DNA from: Owenia fusiformis
Taxonomy: Eukaryota; Annelida; Polychaeta; Sabellida; Oweniidae
Direction of reading: 5' to 3'
Assembly (NCBI GenBank): GCA_903813345.2
Contig: CAIIXF020000005.1
Location: 16,557,375 to 16,621,374, forward strand
Length of the DNA stretch: 64,000 bases
The translations under genes and the position numbers were made by a program. The first letter of the stretch is position 1; each line of letters starts with the position of its first letter. Shown piece after piece: positions 6,734-35,060 of the stretch. The notes under the pieces were generated by a model. The model saw only the letters and a list, made by a program, of their open reading frames with translations, had not been told where the DNA came from and did not search any database.

Positions 6734-8099
6734 GTAATATTGTGCAAAACTATAGATTTAGATGGTTATCACTGGATTTTATCAGTAGATTCTTCATATA
6801 AAATTCTTGTATCGATTATAGCTCATTATTTACAGATATTCCAAAGGTATGTAACAGAATTAATATTTTCAGTATTTTTTTGTATTTTTGATTATAGGTT
6901 TTAACTTCATTATTCTTTTTTTATTTAATGGCACAATAGTTTTACATTTTTTTAGAATAAATTATGGTACTTTATTATTAGGCAAAATATTTTATGAAAT
7001 AAATACACTATATTGACAGTTGAGATTTTAAATAGGTTATACTGTAATAATTATGGCTCATAAAACCTGATTATATTCTCACAAAAATGAATTTGAAGCT
7101 GTTACAATTATACTGATTAGTCTTATTACACATGCCTAGAGAGAGATAGATAGAGGGGGGGGGGGGTGCGGGGGAGGAGGGGTTAATCAGAAGCAACTTT
7201 ATGTTACACTATTTTCTAATATAGAATGTATAATGTTGTTCGTGGTATTTGTGCTAAAAGTGTAAAGCCCAATAGACTCAGATAGAATGCTTACACATTC
7301 TTTTGAAGATAATTTATAATGGTTTGATTTTAAGAAGATCTTAGCAATCTCATTTAATGCTATTTATAGCCTTTTGGGAGTTTTATGTAAAATGAATGTT
7401 GGTAGGGAATAGTTTGCTGGCTTATCAAAGAAATATCTCTTATCTTAAAGAGTATCATTCTGATACTAATAGCATCTCTCTGTTTCACCATCTCAGGGCT
7501 GAGAAGAAATGAGATGTCATGGTTTATCATGATGTAAGAGTATAGTAAATTAAAGACTTTTTCCAAAGGGTACATTGAATATGGTTTTGCTAATGTCTAT
7601 AATAGAGTTGGTGACAAAGCAAGGTTGAAGTAGATGGAGTCGCCTCAGAAGTGCTTTTCATCCATGTTTGTCTATTTACTGAAAAAACAACTTGGAAAAA
7701 CATACCATGCCTGGTCAATATTTAATGAAATAAATATCCAAAGAAACTGAGCAATGCTGTGAAAATAAAGCTTACTGCAAACAAAAATGGTGTAGAAGAA
7801 ACAGGAGATATATTGATAACTGAAATCAAGTTCCCTGTTGATGTTGTTATCGAAAATGTGATGTCACACATATTTTTGTCAATAATCCTTTTACTTAATT
7901 GATTACAATCTTATATTACGTGATATTGGTTGTTTTGTCACCGAATGAATTGATTAACTTGGATGTGGAAATCATTGCTTGAATAGCTTTTTTGTATAGA
8001 ATTGAGGTTATGATTGTTTTTACTGATTTTTGGCTCATACAGTATTGTAAAATCTTGTGCTGTTGGGCATGTGGGGGTGTGACATGATCTTAAACAAAA
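6734..8099. other. non-coding DNA
   Basis: AT-rich sequence with a purine/poly-G run near 7,141-7,180. No ORF with recognisable homology and no bounded transposon was seen. Confidence 0.5.
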
Positions 8100-8108
8100 C
8101 AGCTATTG

Positions 8109-8220
8109 TAATCTAGCTACAAGCCCTTGTGACCCCCCTCCACTCCTCATCCCGTCCCTGTATGAGAAGGTGTGTAGTCAAATAGTGAGGGGGGGGTCAC
8201 AGGGGCTTCTAGCTAGACTA
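8109..8220. mobile_element. 112-bp Mutator-like MITE with 9-bp TSD
   Basis: The direct repeat cagctattg occurs at 8,100-8,108 and 8,221-8,229, immediately outside the element. The ends are inverted repeats of roughly 33 bp: taatctagctacaagccc at the left and its near complement gggcttctagctagacta at the right, continuing into C-rich and G-rich tracts. A 9-bp target duplication with long terminal repeats is typical of Mutator-superfamily elements. It has no coding capacity. Fragments of the same end occur near 19,016, 35,028 and 58,571. Confidence 0.8.
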
Positions 8221-8235
8221 CAGCTATTGAATATA

Positions 8236-8414
8236 CAGTAAAACCTGTCTTAGTGAACACCTCTCATTAATGAACACTTGTACTTAGTAAACACCATTTC
8301 AAGACACATTTTACATTGACTCCTGTATAAAAGTCCCCCTCTGTAGTGAACACCTACCTATAGTGAATACTTCTTTGTGGCTCCATAGGTTTTCACTATA
8401 TACAGGTTTTACTG
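8236..8414. mobile_element. 179-bp pogo/Tigger-like MITE
   Basis: Terminal inverted repeats cagtaaaacctgt and acaggttttactg are exact and flanked by TA on both sides, as in Tc1/mariner-pogo elements. The interior carries repeated tgaacacc/gtgaacac words. It starts only 16 bp after the neighbouring Mutator-like MITE ends. Six more relatives lie in the window (12,216; 19,407; 22,952; 52,575; 58,700; 63,167). Confidence 0.85.
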
Positions 8415-8789
8415 TAACTGCAAACTCATCTTTAAAAGTCAGAGGATCCATGTTTTTAGCTATTTGGGAACAGGGTAACATTGATTAGCTCAATCAGATG
8501 ACAGACATCTCCATCACAATGTAGCCAACCATCCAATCTAACGTGTTCAATTAATCCATTATCTCAATCCATTGCCCACTGGTCATTAGGCCCTTGTTTT
8601 ACCATTCATTGACAATGTTTGTATTGATAGACCAAACAATGGCCTATGGGAGCAAGGGGCATCATCGTGGATTGGAATTTCTATGATATATACTGTACAC
8701 ATTTCTGTAATATAATCTGTAATATGGAATGCTGGTTTGAGTTTTGTATCAGTTTCCTTTTTCACCTCTTCACTCCCCCCAGTTTTCTG

Positions 8790-9475
8790 CAAGTTAAAAT
8801 GCTCAATTCTGCAAGTGAAATTAGTGAATTCTGCAAGAAGAAAGGGCTAATTCTGCAGAAATTCCGCGGATATTCGCGGCATTTTTTTGCGGTTATTATA
8901 AAAAAAATCAAGATTGGTTTAACAAGAACAGTATCATATATTCTAAAAACATGATCCATTTTAAATGTTTTATATTTATTCAGATTTTATTTCAAATTTC
9001 ACATTTTTCGAAACTTCAAACACGGAGGATCGGGCGCATAATGGGAGTCACGATATATGTAAATCAGGTTTTAAGTGTAATATCTCATTGGAGTTCGAAG
9101 TTTTCGATCAATAACTTAATAATATAAATAACTGTTATTAATTTATGTCTTTGTTTAACTTTCTGACGAGAACCGAAAGAAAAACTAATGGTTTTCGAAC
9201 CAGTAAACGGGAAAATATCGTGATAGTCAGGTAGTCAGTCACTACATACATGCTGCCATCTAACGGCAGAAATCAAACGATGGCGTTTAGAATTTTCACT
9301 TCGCATAATTTGGGTTATTTCTGCAAGGGATTTGACTGAAAACGTGTCAAATTGTTACAGGTAAGACTGACTTTTTAAACTTTTGGAAAATATATGGATT
9401 CTGCGGAAAATTCCGCGGAAATTGACCAAAATAGTTGATTCTGCAATTCCGCGGGCAGAGGCAAATTCCGTCCCG
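8790..9475. repeat. CpG-rich patch with ttctgc..attccgcgg repeats
   Basis: Both edges carry copies of ttctgcagaaattccgcgg-type words (8,852-8,873 and 9,397-9,422), and cgcggatattcgcgg lies at the left. The words are in direct rather than inverted orientation. The interior from about 8,890 to 9,390 is ordinary AT-rich DNA. This probably marks a degraded transposon whose exact ends I could not define. Confidence 0.4.
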
Positions 9476-9510
9476 CTCTGCAAACACGGAATCCTGGGGG
9501 CAGTCTTGGT

Positions 9511-9543
9511 CATCTTGATTCACAAGGTTTCAGTAGCTACAAC
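9511..9543 (+). repeat. 33-bp dispersed repeat
   Basis: The segment starting catcttgattcacaaggttt is shared with 17,342-17,374 and its duplicate at 33,354-33,386, with two mismatches. It lies just beyond a transposon-like patch in each case. The class is unknown. Confidence 0.5.
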
Positions 9544-10039
9544 CTCACCGGGTCAGATACAATGTCTTTTGGTTAAATGAGGCTAGCATACAGAAGATAT
9601 TTATAATTAGACCCTTGATTCCCAAATGGTGCCTCTTTTAAAATACTTTGCTCCATTCTCATATAGGTACTGGTGGATCCAGGGGGCCAGGGGGCCCTTC
9701 CTTAGTAGATCAAGCCATTTTATTGCCAGAACAAATCTTTTTGTATTAATAAGCCATCTTTTATTACCATATTTATTAAGATATTTTAAGTCAACTTTTT
9801 AGTGTTTGAAAAAGATTTCATTGGAGTTATGAAAAGCAGATGACAAATTAGGTATTAGCATATAATTCAGCATGATGTCAAGTAAAACAAAACAAATGCC
9901 ATACTTCAAATGTGACTGTTACAACAAGCCCTCCCAGTTGGCACACATAATTTAACAACCAACAGAAAATGTCTTTGAAGAAAGAAAAACTGAAAGATCA
10001 TTCAAGGTTGTGTCTTTGGCATCAAATTACATGTACAAC

Positions 10040-10417
10040 TACCCTTTGCATTCGTTTGACTTCACTTCTTAAATGAGAGCTTCGTCTTCACTCTTTCAAA
10101 CTGAAATAAACCTGTGAACTCACCGCGCCAATCAGTGTTCGTCGGCCAAATTTGACCGACGTTCTATATATGGTCATTCCTTCTGACGTCATTGTTGAGC
10201 CCGGAATTGACCAATGACGTGTGTATATTTAATTAGAACGCATTTGGCATATGTTTCTCCAAGCTCGCTGATTGGTGGAAGAAAGGTCAGCACGTAGGTC
10301 AAAAGTGATTTATTACCCAAACTGTCACCGGTACCCATCGTGGGGGCGGGGCTACTAAACTGTAATATGGTCTCTGCTTGGCAGAGTGTAGTTTAACTAG
10401 ACTCTGCACGCAGGGTA
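10040..10417 (-). mobile_element. 378-bp Mutator-like MITE with promoter-like interior
   Basis: The element begins taccctttgc and ends gcagggta. The perfect 9-bp direct repeat atgtacaac occurs on both sides (10,031-10,039 and 10,418-10,426). Read on the minus strand it contains a GC box (10,342-10,351), an upstream CCAAT (10,271-10,275), a second CCAAT-type site (10,211-10,215), TGACGTCA (10,184-10,191) and a TATA-like catatatag (10,163-10,173), in that order. There is no ORF. The 9-bp target duplication supports assignment to the Mutator superfamily. Confidence 0.85.
10163..10351 (-). promoter_or_regulatory. promoter-like motif cluster inside MITE
   Basis: GC box, CCAAT boxes, CRE and TATA-like sites occur in the usual order of a vertebrate-style RNA polymerase II promoter, about 20 bp apart at the CRE-TATA step. 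All are carried by the transposon. Activity is not shown. If active, transcription would run leftward toward 10,040 and beyond. Confidence 0.4.
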
Positions 10418-10426
10418 ATGTACAAC

Positions 10427-12213
10427 ATATTTCCCGGCATGTGGCAATTTTCTGTTTAGTGTTTGTCCTACATTCATTTTATTTTTGCCATAAACATTTT
10501 TAGGATTATTTGGATTATTTCCTTCGTGTCATGTTTCAATAAAAATGTCAATGTTAATACCATCAGGGTCTTCCTGTGTTTAGACTTACCAGAACCAATC
10601 TATTACATGTGTTATGAATATGTCATTTTGTTCTTAGCTCATTCTCGCTTTGCATTACAAATACAGGCTTTATCCAGATACAGGTACAGTTTGCTATGGC
10701 TTATATGAACCTTTTTAATTGGCTCATAAATCAGGTTTCTTTATGATTAATTTTTAAAGTGTTGAAACAATATTCCAAACTTTTATGTGGCTAAACCTTG
10801 TCACACACTTCTCAAGTTCATGTAGATACGGACCATCTGGATTGAACACTGAGACTCGGGACCAGCTTAAATTGTAGTATCTAACATCTCCTTTAGTGAT
10901 TCAAATTCTAGCACAAACAAGGTTCTCCTTCAGAGATTCAAACTCATGCTCTTCATTCAGGGTAGAAATGATTCAATTAATTTATTTGTAAATTTAAGCT
11001 ACACATTTCACAAAATCCCCCACAAGCCCTATGTCTCCATTCTCGTTTTCCTCATCTTCTGGAATCAACTCCCCTTCTTTAGCCATCCTCCATCTTTTTC
11101 CATCTATTTAAAATTTTGTGATATTCTAAAGATTACCTCTTATCAGTTTTTATTCCTTTTGCTCATGAAATACCATTCTGATTCATCAGAGTCACTCTTT
11201 ATCTATTGCACAGGTGGATTACGGGATGGTCAAGTATCTTAGGGCCCAGATAAGTAGGCCTTCTTAGCCCTCATTTTTTAATTGAAGGCCTTGAATTTTC
11301 AAAAGGGCCCAATTCTTGGTTTAAAGGGCCTATTATCTTTTCTCGCACAAATGCGAAAAGTTTTTTTTCTGACTTGAAATTCCCCCCCTTCTTTGTTATT
11401 TTTCAGCTCCTCCCCTGCTGTGGTCCCATAATGATAAAATACCTTCTTGGATCAAAATGAATCTATAGATTATCAGTTTTATTTTTGTCTATCACTGATC
11501 AGAGAAGCAACATTTTGAGTGGTTAGTGATAACCCCAACCACAGGGTAAAGGGTTGCAATCATATCAAATACCTCACATTCAGTCAACGCACATATCATT
11601 CCCTTGCTTCTGCATTAGGCAGACCTAGTCAGGATCAAGCACCTAGAAACTCAAACCAAGAACTTTAGTAAAGCAGAAAAATTAGCATTAAGATAGAAAT
11701 CAATTAAAAAGTAAGAAAATATAGAATAAGGAGGCAGTTTAATGATTTAAGTTTTGGTTTCAGATATATAAAACTAAGGATTACGACGCTACTTTGGATC
11801 TGTTTGGATTTGAGTGGAATTGAGTCAAGTACATTGAAGTGAGAGATCCGAACTTGAACACCCACGTGAGATCTGAAATGCTGGTGATTTGAAAGTCTAT
11901 ATTCAAGGTTAACTGGTAAGTACCATGTCTTGTACATGTTGTTAGGTCTTTTTACAGATTGGTAATTCATTAAATGAAAAATGAGAATCTATGGAAGGAT
12001 ATGGCATATCCAACATTGTTTGCAGCTATTTTAATGTTTGCAGAGTGCATGTTCCAATAGAGAATATTGGGCTTGAGTATGGTTCAGCATTGGACATCCT
12101 CTGGTCAAAGAGCGCTGCAGGTTCAGCTTTGTACTTTCTGTCTTTCCTTTCTTATTCTGAATCTGGAAGTATTCCATTCAGTGGATAATGTATGATCTTA
12201 TGGGACGATAGTA
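10427..12213. other. non-coding DNA with transposon debris
   Basis: Around 11,245-11,345 the words agggcccag, aggccttgaattttcaaaa and gggcccaattcttgg resemble the interior of the 55,430-55,591 element, so a decayed relative probably lies there. No convincing gene was seen. Confidence 0.45.
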
Positions 12214-12215
12214 TA

Positions 12216-12374
12216 CAGTGAAACCATTATATCCAAATACCTCTCAATATGAACACTTTTTGGTCCCAATTTTATTATCTCACATGCACATTTTAAACCT
12301 TGAAATATGAACAGTTGCTAATTCAACCATTTTTGGCACATTCCAGTGGCGTTCAGATTTTACAGGTTTTACTG
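12216..12374. mobile_element. 159-bp pogo/Tigger-like MITE
   Basis: Bounded by cagtgaaacc at the left and acaggttttactg at the right, with TA on both sides. The interior cctctcaatatgaacac and ttggtccca words match the copy at 22,952. It is non-coding. Confidence 0.8.
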
Positions 12375-13665
12375 TATTCAAAAGTGGTTCAGAGTTTTAT
12401 TCATGTTTCATGCACAATGGGTTTTATCATTGGAATGAATGCTTGGAATGACTAGTCCTTTTAACCCAGTGCAATCATCCTGATAAACCATGGTATCTTA
12501 TTTCTTCTCAGACTGAGTGAAATAAAAAATATGAGATGAGTATCAGAATGAGTGCAACAGGATCTTTATTATGTATTCTACAGACATTAAGACTAATTTG
12601 TGTCCTGTCTTTGCAGGTTGTTTTCATTAGCATTAATTGTATATTTCGATTTGTGCTGACATTTTATCCACAATAGGAACAATCTCATTAGCATCCTCCT
12701 ACTCTCTGTCTCAATCCTATTGCAATATGTTAGCACAGAACAGTCCGATGAATAACTATGAGTAAGAGGCATTGGTTATTTATGAAGATGGGTAATATAA
12801 TTGCATGAGGAGCGACTATATCGTCATGTATACCATGCAATTGTTTTGTAAGATGATTACCAATTTTTGTTTGTTTTTACTTTTTTTAAATTAATAACTG
12901 CTAAAAGTAAAAATTGCTTCTTGGACAATCTTATTTCATCTTTGTTGATGGAATCATTTAATGTCCCATATTTGTGAAAATAATCAATGTTATAATGGAT
13001 AAGTGAATAATCCTAGACTTGGTTAAGTGTCTGGTAAGAGTTATTGTATAAATAAGTAAAAAGTAAAGTGAGACCTCAGGGCTACTTTAAAAAACAAGTC
13101 TGAACATGTGTTTCTATGGCAACCATGGCTTGGAGGAACCGCAACACCTCAGAGTGCTTAATTGTTGAATCTATGAGTGGAATCTGAATTCCTGCTTGAA
13201 AAAGACAATATCCTGTAGAGCTCAAGGGATTTTATTGTGTAAGCACTCTGCTTCTGATAGCTCTACTGCAGTATTATGTTATAGGGACGGGCATTGTAGG
13301 TGCATACAAATGAATGAGTCACTGTCTGTCGCCATGGTAGTCTGTGCAAAGATCTTGTTTCCATGTCAACAGAGAAAAAGAGGATTGACATAGGGCATGA
13401 TATGAAGAATCTTTTGAGTACCACTGGTTGTAATTAAACAGATCATCATGATCGTACAAAGTTGTTATTATTAGTTTTTATTTTAAACTGATGTATCAGA
13501 TATATTCTCTGTGGCAGATGGATGGAATATTAAGTACAATTTAAAGGGTAAAAAAACATAATGTAGCATGTGGATATCATCATGCTAGGATCTCAGAAAA
13601 CAGTCTCCAGTCATATTTATTTCATATCATTATACTAATAATTTATATGAATCCCTGTATGTCAT

Positions 13666-13911
13666 TACCCTGCGTGCAGAGTCTAGTTAAACTACACTCT
13701 GCCTAGTAGAGACCATAATTTAGTAGCCCTGCCCTCACGACGGGTACCGGTGACAGTTTGGGTAAATCACTTTTGACCTACGCGCTGACCTTCCACCAAT
13801 CAGCGAGCTTGAAGAAACATACGCCAAATGCGTTCTCATTAAATATGCGCATGTCATTGGTCAATTCCGGGCTCAAAGATGACGTCAGAAGGAATGACCA
13901 TATAAAGAACG
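13666..13911 (+). mobile_element. truncated Mutator-like MITE (copy 1)
   Basis: It starts with the family terminus taccctgcgtgcaga and stays collinear with the full element at 25,670-26,047 through the CCAAT, CRE (13,880-13,887) and TATA-like (13,899-13,907) motifs. It stops matching just after aagaacg, so about the last third is missing. The GC box is damaged here (ctgccctcacga). Confidence 0.8.
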
Positions 13912-15211
13912 CTTGTTGTCAGGTATGAGCTACATACATTTTCATGACACCATCAAGTTGTGACATCAAAAGCTTTTTTGTGTCTGGCCCCGGGTGTCTG
14001 GTATTTGCATGGTATAGCCGTCAGCATTTGGTGTCAATATTGTTGCACTTTTGGAGTTGCAAATTGGTTGTAACATTTTTCATGTAAATGCCTTGTGGCA
14101 ACGTGTTATAAAATGCCAATCTGTAACTTGTAACTTCGGGTTTTTTATGTGACCTTTTTACCCACACAGTTCACAATGTAATAATCATTATAGCTCACCT
14201 CCTACCCAATAGAGCAAGTGTAAAGTCTATCATGTCTTACAACAATCAAATCGGACTCTATACCAGAACTCCTATTTCATCCATTGTTATCACAGTATGT
14301 AACAGGAACCCGAAATCCCACTCATATGAGCTCTTAACACATGAGTGACTCATATGATATAATGGCCATATGAGATAATAATTTCATTTCAGATGGACAT
14401 CTTAATAATTCACCTTATTTGCATAAGGAGTTATATAACTGTAATCAAATTCTGAGCGTCATTTTGATTACATTTCACGCTCAAATTAATTTAACTCAGA
14501 GTAATCCATCAATGACGTGATATTATATAAAACAATGGGCCCCAGTGTAATATATGATTGACCACATAATCATACCTCTGTGACGTTACTTAACTATGGA
14601 CATGAAGGAAATTACGAAATTTCTTGAGATTATAAATTACTGAAAAATCTGAAAGGGTATTGAAGGGACTGAATGAGTCAGACCAAAGATCCAATGTCAG
14701 GCTAACACTAGAATTTGAACAATTGAATCGTAGTTATAAGTTCTATAAAGGATAATTGATTGTTTCCCTATTGTTTTTGTTGTTTTTCTGTTGTCGGGTT
14801 TGGGCATAATTCCAACAATCCCCTTGCATACCTCCTAGAAAGACTGGAGTGTGGGTGATTTTATTCATTTATATTGATTAAACCACCAAATTCAATTTTT
14901 ATGAGTAATTTATACTAGAGTGTTTTTTTGCAATAATCTGGAGAAACTTGAGGTGATTCAAATTGATTAAATGGTTCAAGTTTTCCCAACTGGGCATAAT
15001 GCCTTGTTTCCTGATTTGGATTTTTTATCCGTCAGTTCCGTACAATCCCATGTATAGTCCCAAAATGAGGCCAATTTTAGCACTTTCTTTGGGTGCTGAT
15101 TGAGATTGTATTTCAGGGAGTCCAGATTTTTCTGATAATCTTCTTTCAACAGACAAGATTAAAGTTACTATGGTGATATTTCATTTTGATCAAACATAAG
15201 GGTAACATTAT

Positions 15212-15574
15212 CAGGCCTGTCAACTTGGGAACACCTAACATGAGTGACTTGGAAATGTTGAACACCTCCCCTCAAAATGTGGACACCTTGGTCCAAAATA
15301 GGTACAAAATATTTCGAACGGAATGCGTGACATATCCGTAATTCGCGTGAAAAGTCCGAACGAAATGCGTACGTTTTTTCCCGTCGTTCGTATTTTTGCT
15401 GTGTAGACGATCTTTTTTAGAAAATTTTCTACAGAAATATTTTTGCTTGACAATTACCAGGTAAAATGTGTATTTGCGTGACATTTTCTGTCACGCAAAA
15501 ATAACTGGCGTGACTTCAAATTCTTCAGCAAATGTGTGACAAATACGCAAATTGCGGGACAGTTGAAAGGCCTG
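15212..15574. mobile_element. 363-bp MITE, CAGGCCTGTCAAC ends (copy 1)
   Basis: Terminal inverted repeats caggcctgtcaac and gttgaaaggcctg match with one mismatch and are flanked by the direct repeat cattat (15,206-15,211 and 15,575-15,580). The interior is unusually rich in CpG (gcgtgac, ttcgcgtg, cgtacg). It holds an internal hairpin gcgtgacattttctgtcacgc at 15,476-15,496. The superfamily is uncertain, and ORFs across it look fortuitous. Confidence 0.75.
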
Positions 15575-16551
15575 CATTATGAGTGAAGTTATCATCATAA
15601 TATGCAACTTCACCCAGGAGCTAATATTATTGAAATCATTCCCAATGTCGATTATGATAAACTTTATTGAGCAAAGTACAAAGTTTGAACCATATTTTAT
15701 ACAGAACTTAAATCCTTGATGTTTGATAAAATCATGCATTTATTCCAGCATTGAACAGAGGCTATAGATCAACAGATATTAACGTCAGATAATGCTGAAA
15801 TATAATATTTCATGATCTCTGCAAACTTTCCTACCAGGACCCACTGGGAAATGTCTCATATTAGAGGATTTCCTCATTTTTGTGGTAACATTTTTAATGA
15901 AATATCGGAAACAGATTTAGGTTTCATAAAACGTTGTTTGTAAAATAATCTCCTTAATGATGTATGTTTGGCTGAAAGTCAACTGTAACAAGAGCTTTTG
16001 TTTGTAGCTAATTAGGGTATGAGGTTTGACATTCCTTAATTTATTGTTAGCATCCATGTGGATGTTGGAAATAAACAATTACAGGCTTTAGAGCTTCTGA
16101 AATATTGAGGTTCAGCTTGTTCTTTCGGTGATCAATCATTTACATTTATGCAATTACAATTATTTTGTTTTTTCCTATTGTGTTCTCATTTTCATACTGA
16201 ACCTTCATTGCCCTTTTGGAAAAATGCCAGAGACAATTAACTCATCCTTGGTCCAATGGTATTTCAATACTTTCTCCAACTGCTATAGCAGTGAAGTCCG
16301 ATCTTGAAGAATGAATTTAGTCAAAGATATGCAAAATGATGATGGTTATTCCTCAAAATAACCCTAATTTCTTAAAAGTTAGATACTATAGTAAGTTATA
16401 TTCTTACATTGAGGCCCTATCCCATCAATGATGGCGACTTGGCAAGTAACTCTATTCCTTGGTGAGTTTTCTCAGTTTCTCCAATCCCTGTTATGCAGAC
16501 GAGACTAATATGACCACCGTGACATGTCTGGCTTGAGGTGCTGAGATTACA

Positions 16552-16977
16552 TCATATTATATCAGCATGATCAGTAGATCCATCATCAGTGGCAGGAGGA
16601 ACTTCATCAATCATCTCATGAGGTTCATCTCCTGCAGCCTTATCCAGGGTGGAGAGGTATTCTTTCTGGATCAGATAACATAATTTGCTGTTCATATTTT
16701 GTTGTTCAATTTGATATGTTTTGTTGGTATGTTTAAACATGGTATCTCCATTGTTAGATCTCTTACCATCTACATGTATTTTATCATCAGTTACAGTAAC
16801 ATTGCCATCATCAATCACATCATCAGTCTCATTCCCTGCAGTATTATTTCCTGCAGTGAGGTGTTCACATTCAGAGTAACATGACATAATTCTACATTTT
16901 TCTGTATGAGTTATTTTGTAAGCAAAGACATATCCTCCTTGCGCTAAGTCGATTCGATTCCCTATTTTTATATTCAT
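16552..16977 (-). CDS. unrecognised 141-codon ORF, shortened allele
   Basis: The ORF starts at an ATG preceded on the minus strand by a pyrimidine-rich stretch ending in TAG, which could be a splice acceptor. The predicted product is acidic and Asp/Thr/Asn-rich, with several N-glycosylation-type sequons (NNT, NET, NVT, NKT) in its first half, and it has no signal peptide. I do not recognise a family. It ends at a TGA that reads CGA in the duplicated copy at 32,566. It may be a spurious ORF, a pseudogene or an exon. Confidence 0.2.
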   Translation of the reverse strand: MNIKIGNRIDLAQGGYVFAYKITHTEKCRIMSCYSECEHLTAGNNTAGNETDDVIDDGNVTVTDDKIHVDGKRSNNGDTMFKHTNKTYQIEQQNMNSKLCYLIQKEYLSTLDKAAGDEPHEMIDEVPPATDDGSTDHADII

Positions 16978-17098
16978 TTATTCTAAAAAAGGCTAATAGT
17001 CTATAATGCTATATTTTTTCAGAAAGGTGCTCATTTGCATCGTGAAAGGTTGTTTCTTTCATTATGAATAAAGCCCCTAATTTCAGATGCTTCCCTAA

Positions 17099-17294
17099 CA
17101 TGGGCGTAGCGTCCGGTACGCTGGGTACGCACAGGCGTACCAGATGGTTGCAAATTCGCTCCAAATACAACCAAATTTCAAAAATTTCCTGGGGGAGAAC
17201 CCCCACACCCCCCTGAATACTTATTTTTTGATTCACTCAACTTTTGTTCCTGTGGTGGTGGCGTACTATTTAGAAAAATAGCGCTACGCCCATG
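17099..17294. mobile_element. 196-bp MITE with CATGGGCGTAGCG ends (copy 1)
   Basis: Perfect 13-bp terminal inverted repeats catgggcgtagcg and cgctacgcccatg are flanked by the direct repeat cctaa (17,094-17,098 and 17,295-17,299). The interior has an acccccacaccccc tract. An ORF of 75 codons overlaps it but belongs to the repeat. It looks distantly like the CAGGCCCGTAGCCAG family in its ends and C-rich interior. Confidence 0.8.
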
Positions 17295-19015
17295 CCTAAT
17301 GTTTTACCCTTTCCATAGTTTGAGATCATTTTGAATAAAACCATCTTGATTCACAAGGTTTCAGTTGCTCCAACTTTGTGTTATAATCTTGGAATTTTAA
17401 GATAACAATAAAACCCCATGCTAACATTTTCACTGCTGACAACAGTATAGTGCCCATCCCTGGGAAAACATGACCTATGTTGTTAATGTGGGGGCTATCC
17501 AGCCTTGGCCCAAGAGTAATTCATTGCATTACATGAGCTGCTATGAAAGCAGTGAAGGAACAATCTTGATGAATAAGGCTACCTCACATGATGCTTTTCT
17601 AGGAGCTGTATTTCCTGCAGACTGATAGAGACATGATTTCATATATTTCACCATCCTCCAAATATAGGGCTCCCTTCTTCCAAGAATGAGGTAACAGTTC
17701 TGGAGGACTTTTCTGTTGATATATCACAAATTTTATCAGAACATTCATTTTTTTTATTGTATCATTACTCGCATCATTACCTACCTTTTGTCACTTACCA
17801 TTTGTACAAAAATATTCCCTCAATAACATGATGTTGCCTATTTCTATATCTGGACATGATGATATGAGGAAACTAATACTTTTCCTACAAAAATTGTACA
17901 TGAAACAGAAAATACCCTTTGAAGAATGTAACAAGCTTTGTAATAAAATAAGTGTAATTAGTTTATAGTCTTTGATACAAAAATGAGTTGCTAGGCAACT
18001 GTTCACAGAGTTCCAATGAAGTATCATCAACTCAAGTAAGCTAAATAAGCAAAACTCAATTACTTTTTTTCAGTTAGATGTTTTCTTTTAACATAAGCTG
18101 ACTAAAATACAGATTTCATAATGTCAAGAAGATTATATACTGTCTATGATACAGTTTCTTCATCCTTCGATCACAGGGCTTCAAAATCCAGAACATATTC
18201 TTTCGTTTTACCCCCTGGACACCTGCTTAGGAGGATGCAGTTTCTTACAACCATAATTTTTATGAAGATTTAATTATTTTGTAAAGACATGCATCAAGCT
18301 GATGTACAAAATTCTATAATTCTATAACATATTTTTTCAATTCTCATGAATGTTTAGTGATTTGAGGGAAAATCATTTGTTCATTTGTTAGTTTCAGATT
18401 GACATATTTATTACTGGTGTATTTGATCTTGATATTTTTCAATCTTATCAGTTTTATCAAGACTACCATGTTATCAGCATTCTGATTTATTCACTAACAT
18501 CTCTATGGGGACATGAGAAGCAAAAATCATTTCACTGCCTCCAAGAAGGACATTCAGAGATATTTATGATTCAAAGTTAGATTAAAGCCAAACAGATTAT
18601 TGCTTATGAAAGACTAATGTTCCTGACCCAATAGCAGGGTGTACAAGTGGATTCAGAGAGATTGTGATCGTCATGGAGATGCCAATGAAACAGATCATGT
18701 GATAGCTTTCATGGTCACTGACTCTGCTCGTAATTATGAAAGATTGTTTTATTTTATATTTCTGACAGGTGCTGTATATCATGAATAGGGTAATAAAAAT
18801 AAATGGAACTTAGAAGTAGAATCAATATTGGCTCTAATTCCCCAAGTATTTTACTTGAACAGTGGGGAGCAGCCAAGAATTTTTTTCCTTTTTAAGAGGT
18901 ATATTTCTTAGTCTGTTTGGTAGGAATACTGTCTAACTATCAGGCATTGCTACTTCTGAAAAACTCTTTGGATCTATTTCACAACCTGGAGACTGAGGAG
19001 GAGACTAGTCAGGGA

Positions 19016-19048
19016 GGGGGAGGGGGTCACAGGGGCTTGTAGCTGCCA
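19016..19048 (+). mobile_element. fragment of C/G-rich Mutator-like MITE end (copy 1)
   Basis: The word ggggtcacaggggcttgtagct matches the right terminal repeat of the element at 8,109-8,220. No partner end was seen, so it is a solo end. Confidence 0.5.
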
Positions 19049-19406
19049 AAGTACTTGGACTGAAGGATGGCATTGACATGTCACAAATCCCACAGCCTTG
19101 GATTGAATAGCAAACTGAATTTACATTTATTATAATTCAGTGATCAGATTGTCTGATAATGGTCTAATTAATCAGTATGATGATAGTGCTGATTGTATAT
19201 AAACAGATAATAGCTGGACCAGAAGCTCATCTTCATTACATAATTACATAATCTTGATAATTAGTGTCATCTGGTAATAAGATCACTGGTCATCTAATAT
19301 GTTTCCCTCTGATCAAATAATCAATTCATGAATTATAGGGAAGCTTTTCATACTCATGTCTCTGCCTTTTCAAGCCTTTGCATTATTTTAGACTGATTTG
19401 GGAATA

Positions 19407-19450
19407 CAGTAAAACGTGTATATCTGAACACCTCTGTTCAGATATAATGG
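19407..19450. mobile_element. pogo-like end collapsed into a hairpin (copy 1)
   Basis: A left terminus cagtaaaacgtg, preceded by TA, runs into a perfect hairpin. Arms tatctgaaca (19,421-19,430) and tgttcagata (19,435-19,444) flank loop cctc. The second terminal repeat is missing. Confidence 0.6.
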
Positions 19451-19496
19451 ATATATGTTCTGATTATTTTTTGTGTTAAAGAAACCTGGAAATGTA

Positions 19497-19686
19497 CAGG
19501 CCCTTAGCCAGGGAGAAAACCTCCCCCCTCCCCTTAGCCAAATATTCTTTCAAAGACACACCGTTTTTCACCATTATGAGCACTTAAGTGATTTTGGCCA
19601 TTTTTGGAACGAAATTGTCATAAGTGAAGCCCCCCTGAAATTTTTTAAAAAGTGAACCCCCTTGGCAAAACCTGGCTATGGGCTTG
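19497..19686 (+). mobile_element. 190-bp CAGGCCCGTAGCCAG MITE (copy 1)
   Basis: It has the same length and internal order as the copy at 60,953-61,142, including tttttcaccatt and gtgattttggcca segments. Its ends are slightly decayed (caggcccttagccag and ctggctatgggcttg). An ORF crosses it, but this is transposon sequence. Confidence 0.8.
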
Positions 19687-20077
19687 ATATTAACAGTTAA
19701 CACCTGCTTATATAATTTTAGTAACTTCCCCTACCATCCATTATCTCCCTCTGTTTGAACCAGTTTGGGCAGAATCATACCACACCAGAATTCAAATTAC
19801 ATAATTTCAATGTTGGGCCATTTTCACTCAGCATCCATAGTTGATGATCTGTTTGTCCTGAGAGACAGTTGGCTGTTAAAACAACAGTAATTAGCCCCCA
19901 CTCAATCACCCCCCTCCACTCCAGTCAGCCAGCAAGGTGGAGAGAGCAGGTGTGCTGGAAACACATTAATTACAACTACTTAAGTATGTCCATTCATTGA
20001 AGCAACTGTTCACCAAATGTTTGCTAACACTTACTGAGGGATGTCAGTTCTCATGTGTTTTCGTGATATTTTTGTTT

Positions 20078-20188
20078 GATATCTCGACTTGATTCAAAGT
20101 GTGTTTCATATTTTGATATCTTCACTTGATTCAAAGTGTGTTTCATATTTTTATACCTCAACTTGTTTTAAAGTGTGTTTCATATTTT
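20078..20188 (+). repeat. 37-bp tandem repeat, three copies (copy 1)
   Basis: Three head-to-tail units share the core caaagtgtgtttcatattt with a few substitutions. The whole block is exactly three 37-bp lengths. Confidence 0.85.
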
Positions 20189-22951
20189 GACATCATAGTT
20201 TTGTTTCATAGTTCCCTGATTATGACTTTCTAGAGTCATTGATTTATTTCTTGCAAGTCATAATGAATTGCTTAATGAATGTTTCAAATTATGACATATT
20301 CATATTCATTACTCCTAGCGTTATTGGACTTCAAACAGAAGTGAAGGTTACACGCAAATGATATATCCATTGCATGGAGTAAGTAATTATCTTTGATATA
20401 ACGAAACATATGAGTTAAAAAATAAATCGTGAAGTATTCTTAGTGTTTTTATGAAAAATAGCATGCTCCGTCACAGCGGACAAATCTTTCGATACCAGCC
20501 TGTGTTGATAGTCAAGGGAAAATTATTTGCTTCACTGAAAATCTGTGTTCAATAAGGTTGGCATGTTTTCTTAGTATTATTTTGTCCCTTCAAGGTTGTT
20601 GACCGCCACTCTGTCCTGGAGCTTAATGAATCTGACAATTAGTGACTTTTACTTCTCAAATTATTTTAATTGCTTATTTTCCCAGCAATTGAACTGAACA
20701 ACCCCCACAAACAATATCAAAATGAAATGAGATAAACCTGCATGTTTTTTTCTGTTGTGAGATTTCATCTCTTTCTTCAATTTTATTGCTATTGTGAATG
20801 TTTTATTATTCTCAAGCTTCTTTTGCTTCTACCTTATGCTGTCTTCATACAAAGATTGCATATTAATGTATGTATAAAAAAGATAAAATGTCAGTTGTGA
20901 AATATATTATCTACACTGATATTTTTTATAAGACCATCAAGTTTGAAATATTTTCATCTTCATGGTGACATTGTTATGGTCTCCAACTTCTTTATGGATG
21001 GTGTTCGGCGGTTGGTGCTTGGCATTTGGTATATTAACAAATGGCACAAGTGGTGACATTTTGCATGTTCATGCCTTGTTCTCATTTTCCCTTTTCCAGG
21101 TTCATTTCTTTTCCCTTTGATTCAGGTTCTCGGGCCAACATAGCCAAGGAGACTCTTGTTTACAGTCCAGTTAAAATCAACATGTGTTTTCTGTTATTCA
21201 TGCTTGGGCATTTGCTCTCTGGAATTTAATATTGCAGAAAATTAAGCTAGAGAATCAACAGTTTCACTTTGATGGTCATAAGATTCCAAATGGACTTCAT
21301 ATGTTGGGGTAAAGTGATATATTACTTTGCAAGGTTGCCCCAGGAATAAGCAAATAGGTCCCAATGTGTTTTCCTTTTTACAAAATGAATGAAAATGCCA
21401 TTTCCCAGACATAACCAGAAAACTATGTTCTTAAAAAAATTGAAAAAGAACAGAAAATACAACATAACATACATATATGAAATTACATGTACCTGTCTTC
21501 AGCAGTCAAAAGTTTTAGATATTTTAAGAGGGCTATGAAGGGCTGCTTGGTTAAAGGGCTTCTCCCTAAGGAGACAATGGGATACTATGTATCTAAAAGC
21601 ATCACATTGCATCATGTTACATTAACCACTGAGCAAGTTCAATGTGGTTGCATACTTCATAGTCTGAGTATGTAAGTTTGCAGTATAAGATATATAGCAA
21701 TTTCAAGCCACCCTAGGGTAAGGTTAGCATAACCTTATAACACTATCTCTATGACTCACTCTATATGTTATCTTTAAGTCATGTAGAACTGATATTTCCA
21801 AGCAACCTGACAGAAAGTTCAACAGACTTGCATTTATTAGGATTCTAGAATCAGTATGAATGTAACTCATATCCTCATCAGTGTCGCTATGGTAATTCTT
21901 TTAGAATATAATATCTCATCAGAAATTGATAAGTCGTTCAAGTCATAGAGCATGAGCATGACGTCTAATCTGGTTTGGCCCATACTGAAACTGATACAGG
22001 ACATTCTACGAAAAGGAAATAATAAATGAATAAGCTCTAATAATAATGGCCATTTATAGTAAATTTATTTTCAGAAACATTATTTTTTGCAGGTTTACAA
22101 CTGCTTCATACAAGATATTTTGATTACTGCATGGTAAAAGATTTGACTTGACCAAAGAGCCATGGCGAGATATCACAGTCTCCTATCAGTGTAGTCTCGT
22201 ATCAAGACACTATTTACCCCCTATTCTATCTCAGTCTCAGATTAAGTTTAGGAAGGTGTCAGGGGCTTGATGCAAGACTATTATTCTTGCTTCATTTGCT
22301 ACATTTGTTTGTATTCATGTGAGTCTCTGGTCAGTTTCCTGGTCAGATTCACAGTCAGTCCTGTCTCCTTCCATTAGCTTCACTTCACCTTATATCAGCA
22401 GAACCTGCCAGAGACAACTGGAATAAACAAGCATTGAACTCATAGAAACACTGATCATTGTAAATAAGGAAATCCCTTGATTTGCTTATTTAAAGCGACA
22501 TTCAGTTAAAATAGACTGGTTCAGTGAATATGGCAATTTTATGGAAATCATTTTATTTACTCAGGAAAATGAAAATTAAGGGAATGTCACTCATGTTTTC
22601 ACTGATTTTATGAGATTATCTTGTATTTTGCGACTAATTAATTATATCAATGTTGAAATTGGCATCAGCTGGTGGTGGATTTTGCTTATTTTTGTTCAGA
22701 ATTTTGTAGTAATATTGAATTGTAAAATTTAACTGAGTAATACATACCCAGATGATGTAATCTCATTGCTCTCACTCATTTGCTAGCCTCCACCTAATAT
22801 ACATGTTAGCATGTTGTCTAAAATCAACATTTTTCAAAGGATTATCTCATACGGCCTGCTGTGTTATCTAATATTGAATAAAAGTCGATCCATTATGTGC
22901 TTTTAAGTCATCTGGGGATTAAGAATAAATCTATACCATTAATGAATATTA

Positions 22952-23126
22952 CAGTGAAACCTGTATATCTGAACACCTCTCTAATCTGAACACCTCTCAA
23001 TGTGAACACTTTTCTTGGTCCCAGTTTGTTATCTCACATATTTAAAAAACTAGAAATGTGAACAATCTTTAATCTGAACACTTTTGGCCAGTTTCAATTG
23101 CGTTCTGATTAGACAGGTTATTCTTT
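22952..23126. mobile_element. pogo-like MITE, right end decayed (copy 1)
   Basis: It begins cagtgaaacctgtatatctg after a TA. The interior tctgaacacctctc and ttggtccca words match 12,216-12,374. The right terminus acaggttattcttta has lost the clean inverted match. Confidence 0.7.
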
Positions 23127-23716
23127 ATTTTCATTGATATAATGTTACATGCAAATATTTGACGATGATTTTTCTAATTCTACATGTCATGAAAAACAAC
23201 ATGGGTCATTTATGGCCATTAATCCCAAGGCTTCAAACTTAGTATAAACATTTTATGATGTAAATGTACCAGCAATTGTGCTTAGATATACCAGCAGTCA
23301 ATAGCTGATGAATCAACACTTTTTGAAAAGGATATGTTTTGGAGAAAATGAATTGCCGAACTTAATCTATGATTGCACAGCAAAGAGGGCGTCTTCTAAT
23401 TGTGGGCTTAAGCGCAACATTTGATTGTTCACTGTTGTTATATGTCAAAGCAAACGTTGCCATTCATGAATGGTTAAGAGAGATTAGTCTTGGAAAAGAT
23501 GTATTTATTGATCTGGAAGATTATATAGGGGCTTCGTGCAAGAATAAAGGGAGATCGAGAAACAAATGTCAATGGAACAGGTATAGTATCCATGGAAATA
23601 TTTAAATATACAAAATAATTATAAGATATGCAAGTTGGATTCTGGCGATTCCCAGACCAAAGGTGCATGGATTAAGGTTTGTAATAGAGGGAAACATTTA
23701 AATAAACAAATGATTA

Positions 23717-23876
23717 CAGGCCCGTAGCCAGGGGGGTTTCAATGGGTTCAGGCAACCCCCCCCCCCACCCCTGGCCAGAAATTCTTTCAAAATCATGCAG
23801 TTTTTCACCATGCTGAGCAATTTTTAAATGATTTTAGGACCAAAATTGTCAAAAGTTAACCCCCTCTGGAATTTGA
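23717..23876 (+). mobile_element. right-truncated CAGGCCCGTAGCCAG MITE (copy 1)
   Basis: A clean left end caggcccgtagccag is followed by the family interior (ttctttcaaaatcatgcagt, tttttcaccat). The sequence diverges after ccccctctggaatt, so the right terminal repeat is missing. It contains the C run of 11 at 23,756-23,766 that is 10 in the second copy. Confidence 0.75.
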
Positions 23877-24399
23877 TTCTGCTTGACTTTTGGGATTCAA
23901 CAACCACAAGTGTGTGAGCTCATAGCATCATCCTACCTGGTTGTCTCACCTGAGTCTGTTGATGTAAGACCAATCAATAGGTAAATCTCCAAAGATACAG
24001 GTACGTCATACAGGGAGATATCTAAATAAACAAATAATTATGAGATATGCAGCCAGGATTCTGAGGATTCTCTGATATGTTAGACTGTTTTGATTATCTT
24101 ATATGCTCTGATGAACTCATCTGAGAAAGATCATGCTTTGCGAACTTTGACAATCTATGAATGATAAACAAAATTGCCGTTTTATGACCAATAAGACCAT
24201 AGGCCTGGGAACGTGTATAAAAAATGGAGTCGAATATACCAAGTAAAGAGCTTAGGTAGACTACACAATAAGAAAAAAAATCTTATTGCATTACGGTTTG
24301 ATTCACGTATTTAAAGCTTTGTCAAGTACTGTACATATTTTCCATTAAGTCATGGTATACAATTATGATTTCACTCAGAGTCATTTATCTAGTGTATTG

Positions 24400-24609
24400 T
24401 CATATCATAGCTCATCATATTATATCAAATAGGTCATCATATCATATCATAGCTCATCATATTATATCATAGCTCATCATATTATATCATATCATAGCTT
24501 ATATCATATCATATCACAGCTCATCATATTATATCAAATAGGTCATCATATCATATCATAGCTCATCATATCATATCATAGCTCATCATATTATATCATA
24601 TCATATCAT
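24400..24609 (+). repeat. tcatatcatagc-type tandem array (copy 1)
   Basis: Variable-length arrangements of atcatatcatagctcatcatatt and atatcaaataggtcatcat recur about eight times with nested atatc units. There are no unique spacers, so it is a higher-order satellite and not a CRISPR-like array. Confidence 0.85.
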
Positions 24610-24724
24610 GGATGAAAAACATGATGATATAAAAATCTAAGATGAGATTTTTGATTTTACTCCATATTCTTTCCTCTGTAAGAAATCTCCGCACATCTGT
24701 GAGTCATTGATGTAAAAACTAAAG

Positions 24725-24775
24725 TAGCTCCAATCACCGTGGTGATGTATGTTTGACATGCCCTGATTGGAGCTA
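24725..24775. repeat. 12-bp arm hairpin (copy 1)
   Basis: The arms tagctccaatca (24,725-24,736) and tgattggagcta (24,764-24,775) are exact complements around a 27-nt loop. It is single copy outside the duplication, with unknown role. Confidence 0.55.
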
Positions 24776-25669
24776 TGGTTGCGGTACACCTGGCTATAGA
24801 GGCTAACATGTAGCAAGCTATCTCTACGGAAATCATCTGAGTTTGATTACAGCTAATTGCTGATTTTTTTAAGATGTTTCTTTTGCAGTAACTGGTAACC
24901 AGATATTTGACTCTCTAAGGGGGCCTTTGATACCATGTTTTGGTGACTTACTTTTCTCTAAGCTTGATTTCTACTGAATATTTGACCCCAATATTTGTTC
25001 ATAAGCTGCTGATACATTCCATTAATTATAATGTAAGCTACATTTATAGTTGAATCGGTATGCAGTAGTAAGTAGTCGGAGAGTATAACCTCAGGTTCCT
25101 CAACATTTGTCTGATTAGCTTCTTCAGCATATTTATGCAGGGTATGAGGTATGATTACTGAAGTGAAATTGAACAAGTACTGTAGTTATGACAGTGGTCA
25201 CAACCCGACACTCTTTGTGGTATTTACAGCTCCTATCTCTAGACAAGAGGGGGCCTGATAAATTAGAATATGGCACCCCTAGCAACCCTTATATCAGGTG
25301 TACCAGGTTTTACCCAGCATACTACCCTTTGGATTCGATCGACTTCAATTCTTAAAAGAGAGCTCCGTCTTCACTCTTTCAAACTAAAATAAACCTGTGA
25401 ACTCACCGCGCCAATCAGTGCTCGTCGGCCAAATTTGACCGATGTTCTATATATGGTCATTCCTTCTGACGTCATCGTTAAGCCCGGAATTGACCAATGA
25501 CAATTCAGAATTTATTTTAGCGCGTGTTTCTTCAAGCTTGCTGATTGGTGGAAGAAAGGTCACTGCATAGGTCAGAAGTGATTTATTACCCGACTGTCAC
25601 CGGCACCCGTTGTGGGGGCGGGGCTACTAAACTGTAATATGGTTTCTGCTAGGCAGTGTATAGTTTAAC

Positions 25670-26047
25670 TACCCTGCGTGCAGAGTCTAGTTAAACTACA
25701 CTCTGCCTAGTAGAGACCATATTACAGTTCAGTAGCCCCGCCCCCACGACGGGTACCGGTGACAGTTTGGGTAATAAATCACTTTTGACTTACGCGCTGA
25801 CCTTTCTTCCACCAATCAGCGAGCTTGAAGAAACATACGCCAAATGCGTTCTAATTAAATATGCGCATGTCATTGGTCAATTCTGGGTTCAACGATGACG
25901 TCAGAAGGAATGACCATATATAGAACGTCGGTCAAATTTGGCCGACAAACACTGATTGGCGCGGTGAGTTCACAGGTTTATTTTAGATTGAAAGAGTGAA
26001 GACGAAGCTCTCTTTTAAGAAGTGAAGTCAAACAAATGCAAAGGGTA
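25670..26047 (+). mobile_element. nested full-length Mutator-like MITE (copy 1)
   Basis: This 378-bp copy begins taccctgcgtgcaga and ends caaagggta. It is flanked by the perfect 9-bp repeat tagtttaac (25,661-25,669 and 26,048-26,056), which is host-element sequence, so this copy jumped into the older one. It carries intact GC box, CCAAT, CRE and TATA-like motifs and no ORF. Confidence 0.92.
25736..25923 (+). promoter_or_regulatory. promoter-like motif cluster in nested MITE
   Basis: In order: GC box ccccgccccc (25,736-25,745), CCAAT (25,812-25,816), inverted CCAAT attgg (25,872-25,876), CRE tgacgtca (25,896-25,903) and TATA-like atatatag (25,916-25,923). Downstream are a near-palindrome at 25,927-25,946 and a splice-donor-like gcg|gtgagt at 25,963/25,964. 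The motifs are seen directly. Promoter function is inferred. Confidence 0.4.
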
Positions 26048-26718
26048 TAGTTTAACTAGACTCTGCACGCAGGGTACCAGCATACCTAGTATACCAAGCC
26101 AAACCATCAGTCCAAAGTCAATGTCCCTTCCCAATATCTCTCGAGACCGACTACTTTTGACTCAAGGAGTGTAAAGAAGCATCATTATTGATGTTTACAC
26201 AAATGAAGTTGTTATAGCTGATGATGTTTTTTCAGACATTTCCCTAGATGATCCTATCTGTTCATATACACATAGCTTGCTTGTTTTAGTCGCCCCATGT
26301 GTTTATTATAAGTTCCTAATTTAGTACCGTTCAGCATGATCTTGAGGCAAGACTACATGATAAAATGGTACGTTTTGTGGAAAATTTGTTTTTACAGTTA
26401 TGGGAATATCTGATTGGGGACTGGTATAACTGGATCTTGTTATAAGTGGTCAGTCATTAAAGGAGATGTTTCTAGCAGCTTCCAATTAGAAAACCTAATT
26501 CTATTTTTTCTGCAAATGTACTTTGAAAGTTGTCCAAATAACATGGCTTAGAGCTCTTTGAAGAACATCAATATATTAACATCTCACAGTAATTTTAATC
26601 TATTAGACCTAACAGGGTGCTTATCGGAATTATTTTTGATCAGCATTACTGGGAAATGGAGCTCTTCATTGTGGGATCCACTGCAAGTATTATCCATTGG
26701 AATCTCACCAAAGCATTA

Positions 26719-27379
26719 TGGCCTAGTCACATAGCCCGGCCGATGAGGTTACGATGAGCCAGCGATGCAATTTTCACCGAACTCGGCCGAACACCGGCCG
26801 GACATCCGTGGCGTTTGTTGCTTAAAACCGCATCGGTGGTAGCTCGGTGAAATTTTAACTTCGGAGTTAAATTTCACCGGGCTCTCACCGAGCTCCCTCA
26901 TCATGTCATCGCAGCCCCATCGTAACCACATCGGAAAACACGTCGGCCGGTGCACGGCCGAGTATCGGCCGGTGTCCCGTGCATCTGAGACAACCAGAGG
27001 ACGAGGTTTTTTAACGGACAGCGGCCGAGCTCCGACCGAGCTCCGGCCGATGTGGGACAGAGCATCGGCCGGACACTGTTCAAAGCCCGTTAACAACCCG
27101 GCCGGCGATCGCACGGTGTCCTGTTACCTGCTCCGGTACCGGCCTTATTCCTTCCGATGTCCGGCCGGAGTTGCTGCCACATCGGCAGAAAAAAACTACC
27201 ATTTTGAGACAGACTCCGTACGGTCACCGGCCGGTGTTCGGTCGGTCGCCTGAAGATGTCCGGATGGAGTCCGTTCACGTCACCGAGCTCTGCTTCCGAT
27301 GAGGAGAGCTCGGTGGCACCAAAAAAATCCACCGAGTTCTACCGAGGCCGGACATCGGCCGGGCTATGTGACTAGGCCA
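26719..27379. mobile_element. 661-bp GC-rich Harbinger-like MITE (copy 1)
   Basis: Perfect terminal inverted repeats of about 27 bp start tggcctagtcacatagcccg. The element is flanked by TTA on both sides (26,716-26,718 and 27,380-27,382), fitting the TWA target duplications of PIF/Harbinger elements. The interior is packed with cggccg, ccggcc and caccgagctc words and is far richer in CpG than its surroundings. Overlapping ORFs on both strands (116-121 codons) share these words and look fortuitous. It interrupts the dispersed repeat also found at 4,735. Confidence 0.85.
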
Positions 27380-28794: not shown

Positions 28795-29677
28795 TGAAGA
28801 TGGGTAATATAATTGCATGAGGAGCGACTATATCGTCATGTATACCATGCAATTGTTTTGTAAGATGATTACCAATTTTTGTTTGTTTTTACTTTTTTTA
28901 AATTAATAACTGCTAAAAGTAAAAATTGCTTCTTGGACAATCTTATTTCATCTTTGTTGATGGAATCATTTAATGTCCCATATTTGTGAAAATAATCAAT
29001 GTTATAATGGATAAGTGAATAATCCTAGACTTGGTTAAGTGTCTGGTAAGAGTTATTGTATAAATAAGTAAAAAGTAAAGTGAGACCTCAGGGCTACTTT
29101 AAAAAACAAGTCTGAACATGTGTTTCTATGGCAACCATGGCTTGGAGGAACCGCAACACCTCAGAGTGCTTAATTGTTGAATCTATGAGTGGAATCTGAA
29201 TTCCTGCTTGAAAAAGACAATATCCTGTAGAGCTCAAGGGATTTTATTGTGTAAGCACTCTGCTTCTGATAGCTCTACTGCAGTATTATGTTATAGGGAC
29301 GGGCATTGTAGGTGCATACAAATGAATGAGTCACTGTCTGCCGCCATGGTAGTCTGTGCAAAGATCTTGTTTCCATGTCAACAGAGAAAAAGAGGATTGA
29401 CATAGGGCATGATATGAAGAATCTTTTGAGTACCACTGGTTGTAATTAAACAGATCATCATGATCGTACAAAGTTGTTATTATTAGTTTTTATTTTAAAC
29501 TGATGTATCAGATATATTCTCTGTGGCAGATGGATGGAATATTAAGTACAATTTAAAGGGTAAAAAAACATAATGTAGCATGTGGATATCATCATGCTAG
29601 GATCTCAGAAAACAGTCTCCAGTCATATTTATTTCATATCATTATACTAATAATTTATATGAATCCCTGTATGTCAT

Positions 29678-32989: not shown

Positions 32990-33110
32990 TTATTCTAAAA
33001 AAGGCTAATAGTCTATAATGCTATATTTTTTCAGAAAGGTGCTCATTTGCATCGTGAAAGGTTGTTTCTTTCATTATGAATAAAGCCCCTAATTTCAGAT
33101 GCTTCCCTAA

Positions 33111-35027: not shown

Positions 35028-35060
35028 GGGGGAGGGGGTCACAGGGGCTTGTAGCTGCCA
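35028..35060 (+). mobile_element. C/G-rich Mutator-like MITE end (copy 2)
   Basis: Duplicate of the solo end at 19,016-19,048. Confidence 0.5.

Follow-up and report, generated by a model that had tools for sequence, protein, structure and literature searches.

A high-copy MITE family of Owenia fusiformis whose short copies lack a promoter-like core and are joined near degenerate inner copies of the terminal repeats

The 378-bp element at 10040-10417 of the window (the whole stretch of 64,000 nucleotides of Owenia fusiformis DNA that was analysed) belongs to a high-copy non-autonomous DNA transposon family (MITE) with 9-bp target duplications, in which a form with a promoter-like core coexists with a form reduced to its two ends. 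The best explanation that we can offer, and one in which we place middling confidence, is that this MITE loses its core through transposase cuts at inner copies of its terminal repeats followed by end joining, while the source elements would be under constraint. A previous reading of the window from its letters (the sequence-only reading) had presented the element as a mobile promoter, an idea that the sequence comparisons given below partly support: the element would be an occasional mobile promoter at best, and is apparently of more interest as a transposon that repeatedly loses its middle.

The element, its ends and its family

The sequence-only reading had placed a 378-bp repeat devoid of an ORF at exactly 10040-10417, and both statements were borne out: the element starts TACCCTTTGC and ends GCAGGGTA, the 9-bp target duplication ATGTACAAC flanks it on both sides, and its longest ATG-started ORF is 49 amino acids long. 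The terminal bases are TACCCT and AGGGTA; TACCCT is all that the two ends share exactly, and there is no long terminal repeat. The flanks of the core are unlike each other, and the core has no flanking duplication. Rfam gave 0 matches anywhere in the window, and Pfam gave 0 matches in the three window ORFs tried and in the six frames of 7601-12402 around the element. The parts of the element are (nt, position within the element):

10031-10039, unstranded: left target duplication, 9 bp, ATGTACAAC
10040-10417, + strand: complete element, 378 bp, core-bearing full-length form
10040-10089, + strand: left end, nt 1-50, retained in short copies
10089-10096, + strand: left inner repeat CACTCTTT, nt 50-57, a degenerate copy of the outer TACCCTTT; left break edge
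10090-10386, + strand: core, nt 51-347, 297 bp, with promoter-like motifs; missing in short copies
10381-10388, − strand: right inner repeat GCAGAGTG at nt 342-349, marking the right break edge; reads GAGGGTA in four of the old copies
10387-10417, + strand: right end, nt 348-378, retained in short copies
10418-10426, unstranded: right target duplication, 9 bp, ATGTACAAC

In the species' own genome (498 Mb, 525 contigs), 4,895 places match the first 24 bases of the element with at most three mismatches, compared with 0 for the reversed control. The best 40 copies, which are those nearest the window copy, show 2 to 13 differences from their consensus, and 38 of them carry an exact 9-bp duplication. 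The C1 sample was collected from one chromosome with the exact left 24-mer: among 100 listed left ends, 80 were fetched, 4 were already in the set, 8 known short copies were skipped and 8 were left unread. The 80 sampled copies comprise 39 short ones (64-95 bp), 34 that are full by length (L121, a short copy with another insert, is counted here), 2 of intermediate size (250 and 328 bp) and 5 without a recognised right end; since 8 known short copies were skipped, the short share of 39/80 is if anything low. The duplication is exact in 31/39 short and 28/34 full copies of the sample. The target duplications, compared over 61 sampled copies, seldom have T at position 1 (8%) or A at position 9 (15%) and are A/T in the middle, a weak symmetrical target preference.

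Sixteen older copies, with 71-79% identity to the young consensus, define an old subfamily. Its alignment held 17 copies, of which W25323 was dropped for the frequency and consensus comparisons. The loci had been chosen either by the left block (L131-L139; L131-L133, L135-L137 and L139 of these 9 were unused for the old subfamily) or by the right inner block (L140-L156; L140, L141, L151, L154 and L156 of these 17 were unused), and block conservation in L131-L156 is therefore partly built in.

Short copies and their junctions

In the short copies, nt 1 to ~50 are joined to nt ~348 to 378. The 39 sampled ones comprise 37 distinct sequences and about 30 junction strings, the latter an approximate count with fuzzy anchors. 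When both arms were required exactly and 0-30 nt of any sequence were allowed between them, the short-form pattern matched 578 places in the genome (control 0); at least 33 junction forms are present among the 100 of the 578 matches that were listed, and 17 forms occur once only. Throughout the 100 listed joints, scored by alignment with the full-length consensus, the left side is retained to nt 51 at most and the right side from nt 346 at the earliest. Inside these edges the loss of bases is variable, with microhomology of 0-1 nt and fillers of 1-23 nt (33 forms, 100 listed matches). Patterns for short copies that required the left or the right inner repeat matched only 2 and 1 places, respectively, versus 578 for the free junction.

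Slippage between direct repeats was rejected as a general cause of core loss on account of the 0-1 nt of microhomology in the 33 forms. The sampled short copies L049 and L090 have 2-4 nt of microhomology and are joined further out, L090 being ambiguous.

Some junctions are common to several short copies, so part of the junction variety is inherited and not newly made. L093 and L099 have the same joint between different target duplications, which suggests that the short elements move by themselves. Since 39/80 sampled copies have spread without it, the core with its promoter-like motifs is unnecessary for movement of the family.

Ordinary internal deletions at random places, for example through interrupted gap repair, could also generate short copies if the smallest two-ended forms were then amplified, an account that we regard as unlikely. 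Interrupted gap repair was reportedly recognised by Hsia and Schnable in 1996 as a source of maize MuDR deletions. Fillers and microhomology fit end joining, and a few deletions at other places do exist (L087, L105 and L131). In PIF/Harbinger assays, moreover, smaller elements moved more often (PMC10288884, available portion). However, selection for small size would sharpen the minimum of the sequence kept, whereas it is the maximum that is sharp (2 and 1 places against 578), and no copy of 96 to 249 bp is present among the 80 sampled. Fixed paired breaks followed by trimming and joining would produce such a sharp maximum.

Both edges of the joints lie at the inner repeats. Read inward, the right edge is CACTCTGC and the outer end is TACCCTGC; on each side 6 of 8 bases are alike between the inner and the outer repeat (P = 0.00015, core shuffles, both edges within 2 nt). 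On the left, nt 46-60 have accumulated 2 substitutions in 73 copies versus 21 expected, the lowest count of any 15-mer between nt 25 and 334, and each half of the sample shows the deficit (1 versus 8.5 and 1 versus 12.3). In the right block (336-349), 2 substitutions were counted versus 11.4 expected in the C1 sample, and 9 versus 7.9 in the best 40 copies, where this block shows no special conservation. For these mutation counts, the motif-site counts given below and the inner-repeat tests L079, L121 and W25323 were dropped, and truncated copies without a right end were outside the counts. The right inner repeat reads GAGGGTA in the old copies L079, L133, L134 and L138, with GGGTA as at the outer end; GAGGGTA is absent there from L131 and from the decayed L130 copy. 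Inner copies of the end repeat are thus present at both ends, and neither has a target duplication of its own.

We propose that mobility would depend on the two ends (nt 1 to ~50 and ~348 to 378), each with TACCCT... as its outer terminal repeat and, further in, a degenerate copy of that repeat (CACTCTTT at nt 50-57, GCAGAGTG at nt 342-349). The transposase may sometimes cut at the inner rather than the outer copies and, because no duplicated target lies beside the inner copies, the breaks would then be healed by error-prone end joining. The outcome would be a mini-element of 64-95 bp with an individual junction and without the core; retaining both ends, it could keep jumping. We infer recurrent paired breaks at the inner repeats that are end-joined, with a transposase as the probable cutter; which enzyme this would be is a guess, since no transposase with the element's ends was found. 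In the mosquito MULE Muta1, excision is precise when target duplications flank the element; in their absence a few flanking bases are missing from most sites, and at some sites as many as 13 bp of the element's end remain (PMC5225508, available portion). The inner repeats have no flanking duplications, and a Muta1-like transposase cutting there would therefore leave joints of the kind seen. One observation runs counter to the mechanism: the usual cut would be at the edge of the repeat, yet the joints often retain 1-2 nt of the inner repeat.

A reversed history, in which an 80-bp form with a freely varying spacer is ancestral and one copy gained the core once, seems to us quite improbable. The sharp edges would then be trivial, as the core starts there, and the exact join GTCTTC/TGTAG does occur among short copies; old short copies exist as well. 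On the other hand, several of the listed joints retain the core bases G347 or A346-G347, the core lacks a flanking duplication, and the likeness between core ends and element ends (P = 0.00015) would be a coincidence. Furthermore, the right arms match by era: GTTTAACTAG is the arm of young copies, both short and full, GTTTATAACTAG is that of old full copies, and forms like the latter are found in the short copies L121 (clear, GTTTATAGCTAG), L136 and L007 (both decayed), so that parallel change would be needed. It is simpler to suppose that the core was lost repeatedly in both eras, the number behind this being small (three old short copies, two of them decayed). L121 itself (361 bp) belongs to the short copies; its right arm is of the old type and is interrupted by ~290 bp of unrelated inserted sequence.

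Finally, the core might be a separate nested transposon excised by its own enzyme, in which case the joints, which do look like footprints, and the inverted end repeats at the core edges would both be accounted for. We consider this very unlikely, because no core-only insertion was seen in searches with patterns allowing up to 3 mismatches, which an older core family could escape. The searches for core ends beside foreign flanks gave 0, 3 and 2 matches, of which four read as indels or truncations and the fifth (C6:22448857) was left unread. In 17 fetched old-type loci with altered flanks, the right inner repeat likewise lacks a 9-bp duplication (L154, without a left end, is uninformative); 4 of the 17 carry one at the outer ends with 0-2 mismatches.

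If the core is truly cut out at the inner repeats, this one genome would contain a ready-made footprint library of hundreds to thousands of natural joints, recording the mis-cuts of one transposase together with the end-joining repair of the animal, and the recurrent origin of very short (64-95 bp) MITEs would be explained. The mobile-promoter idea would be altered too, since the promoter-like cargo would go missing at many insertions. The portions of the literature within reach of the search (subscription papers and Repbase lay beyond it) contained no account of the core being lost at inner repeats.

Promoter-like motifs of the core

The GC box, CCAAT, inverted CCAAT, CRE and TATATA that the earlier reading had listed were all found in the window element, CCAAT twice; the last two lines give the truncated copies elsewhere in the window:

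10128-10132, + strand: CCAAT-1
10165-10172, unstranded: TATA-like site TATATATG
10184-10191, unstranded: CRE-like site TGACGTCA; reads TGACATCA in the old-subfamily consensus
10211-10215, + strand: CCAAT-2, within ~28 nt missing in old copies
10271-10275, − strand: inverted CCAAT (ATTGG)
10343-10352, unstranded: GC box GGGGCGGGGC
13666-13911, − strand: 5'-truncated copy, nt 121-378, with a damaged GC box
29678-29923, − strand: 5'-truncated copy, nt 121-378, with a damaged GC box, in the second duplication unit

Dinucleotide shuffling (20,000 rounds) never brought all four motif classes together and gave three or more in 0.06% of cases; three or more occurred in 0 of 1,186 other 378-bp stretches of the window (the classes were picked after the fact, so that chance is understated in both tests). 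As a set, the motif cluster is beyond chance expectation. The order of the motifs is promoter-like on the minus strand, and a reading on the plus strand is possible too.

The 73 near-full-length copies have CCAAT-1 intact in 72 cases, CCAAT-2 in 71, ATTGG in 55, the CRE in 63, TATA in 63 and the GC box in 53. The statement that all copies hold the motifs fails, since 39 of the 80 sampled copies are 64-95-bp short forms and hold none of the four classes. The supposedly fixed content and spacing of the motifs hold in the young subfamily only, because TGACGTCA is found in 0/16 old copies, whose consensus reads TGACATCA, and the segment of ~28 nt with CCAAT-2 is missing from them. Damage to the GC box of the truncated window copies was confirmed in both (listed above).

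The sequence-only reading had named motif sites mutating as fast as neighbouring bases as one half of what would refute its idea. This is what the 73 young copies display: 1.59 substitutions per motif site versus 1.57 per site in the remaining core, and 28 variant alleles at motif sites versus 34.3 ± 5.7 in random blocks (P = 0.16). Motif sites are therefore not visibly preserved after insertion. The two subfamily consensuses, by contrast, differ at 1 of 36 motif positions and at 43 of 209 positions in the remaining core (Fisher P = 0.0045; block permutation P = 0.0042; P = 0.0014 to 0.027 when one motif is left out). Without CpG sites the figures are 0/32 and 34/172 (P = 0.0017). Five motifs entered this comparison (CCAAT-1, ATTGG, CRE, TATA and GC box), all at sites outside the blocks by which loci were selected; columns had to hold at least 7 old copies, or at least 8 for the frequencies within old copies, which removed CCAAT-2. 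Among the old copies themselves, the majority frequency is 0.89 at motif sites and 0.86 elsewhere (P = 0.11).

The low motif change between consensuses, a single comparison between two subfamilies, suggests constraint on motif sites in the full-length source elements. Against such constraint stand the absence of TGACGTCA and of the CCAAT-2 segment from the old copies. The between-consensus and the within-copy results are both compatible with it if dead copies then decayed neutrally; dead copies of a once-useful promoter would likewise mutate evenly at motifs and neighbours. If the motif sites are constrained, the core would probably be a promoter, or a binding site for host transcription factors, in places where the element is moving, any transcription from it being a prediction.

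Capture of a host promoter that the element then spread, seeding new transcription starts, is in our opinion a poor bet as the full story. It would agree with a motif cluster beyond chance and with motif sites that are alike in both consensuses, and promoters are present in the TIRs of MuDR (PMC3310237, available portion). Set against this, motif sites in young copies decay like their neighbours, those within old copies decay nearly like the rest, the CRE is in none of the 16 old copies, and about half of the sampled copies are coreless. We put forward a transposon with a detachable promoter as a doubtful possibility: a core bound by transcription factors would be selected in the sources, and the transposase, cutting at the inner copies of its own end repeats, would delete it at insertion sites with V(D)J-like variety of joints, so that each insertion could undergo a single, one-way switch from a locus with a promoter to a silent 80-bp scar still able to jump.

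Relation to known elements and other copies in the window

A 9-bp target duplication is not specific to MULEs. The name Mutator-like, given in the sequence-only reading, is kept as a provisional one: the duplication fits, falling in the range of 8-11 bp recorded for MULEs (PMC6446971, available portion), while the long terminal inverted repeats that are a MULE trait are missing from the element. Their absence does not exclude a MULE, since MULEs without long terminal inverted repeats exist (same source).

No autonomous partner was found at the MULE-domain loci read, at Merlin-type loci or in other interiors behind the left end. The MULE transposase domain (PF10551) occurs at 8 places in the genome, of which 5 were read (~3 kb on each side), none bounded by the ends of the family, and 3 were left unread. 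One MULE-domain locus (L045) carries a separate 71-bp short copy. Merlin-type (IS1595-like) loci had no match to the family. L135 was rejected as a partner: its left end is identical at 60/60 bases and is followed by unrelated DNA, in which 7 kb hold no right end and no reading frame exceeds 150 amino acids. The candidate L112/L130 proved to be a broken short copy.

MITEs in general are similarly short, non-coding, high in copy number and uniform, with target duplications. The present family differs in its very short terminal inverted repeat and in that copies of two size classes coexist, those with a promoter-like core and those of 64-95 bp with varied joints. Internal-deletion derivatives of MuDR are said to keep both ends and the target duplication and to have filler bases at their joints, as here; joints in this family are very numerous and clustered at two fixed edges. 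Plant tandem-TIR MULEs (PMC3310237, available portion) likewise have outer and inner end repeats on both sides, the inner ones without a target duplication and both conserved. Their repeats are long, whereas those described here are ~8 bp, and in the Owenia family the stretch between the inner copies has been repeatedly lost while the outer ends stay. In the text available, the authors of that study saw no case among PM-ZIBP elements of a single-repeat form arising from a tandem-repeat one. We do not claim membership of the tandem-terminal-repeat MULEs, because the inner repeats are 8 bp and not long TIRs. The animal MULEs Muta1 (Aedes aegypti, PMC5225508) and Rehavkus (PMC6446971) have 8-9-bp target duplications according to the portions available, that of Rehavkus, which is recorded from annelids, being 9 bp; the joints of the family resemble Muta1 excision without flanking duplications. 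Neither a matching transposase nor long terminal repeats were found here, in contrast to both.

The other copies in the window are:

25670-26047, − strand: second full-length copy, 98% identical to the consensus, target duplication GTTAAACTA, inserted in an older copy
25323-26076, + strand: older copy split by this insertion (25323-25669 plus 26048-26076 past the duplicated target), target duplication CCAGCATAC
41334-42087, unstranded: the nested pair repeated, lying in the second of two 16-kb tandem units

At 25323-26076 and at 41334-42087, a young copy is nested in the right end of an older family copy. What appears to be an inverted dimer results from this nesting of the copy at 25670-26047, and its second occurrence is accounted for by the 16-kb tandem duplication (12783-28792 and 28795-44803, 99.96% identity), which is either very recent or an assembly artefact. 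L139 (complement of 6836-7058) holds two left ends in tandem, spaced by ~96 bp and both including the conserved left block. Elsewhere in the window, 50772-51672 is a near-perfect 900-bp palindrome, 94.7% self-complementary over its length, and is probably a foldback element.
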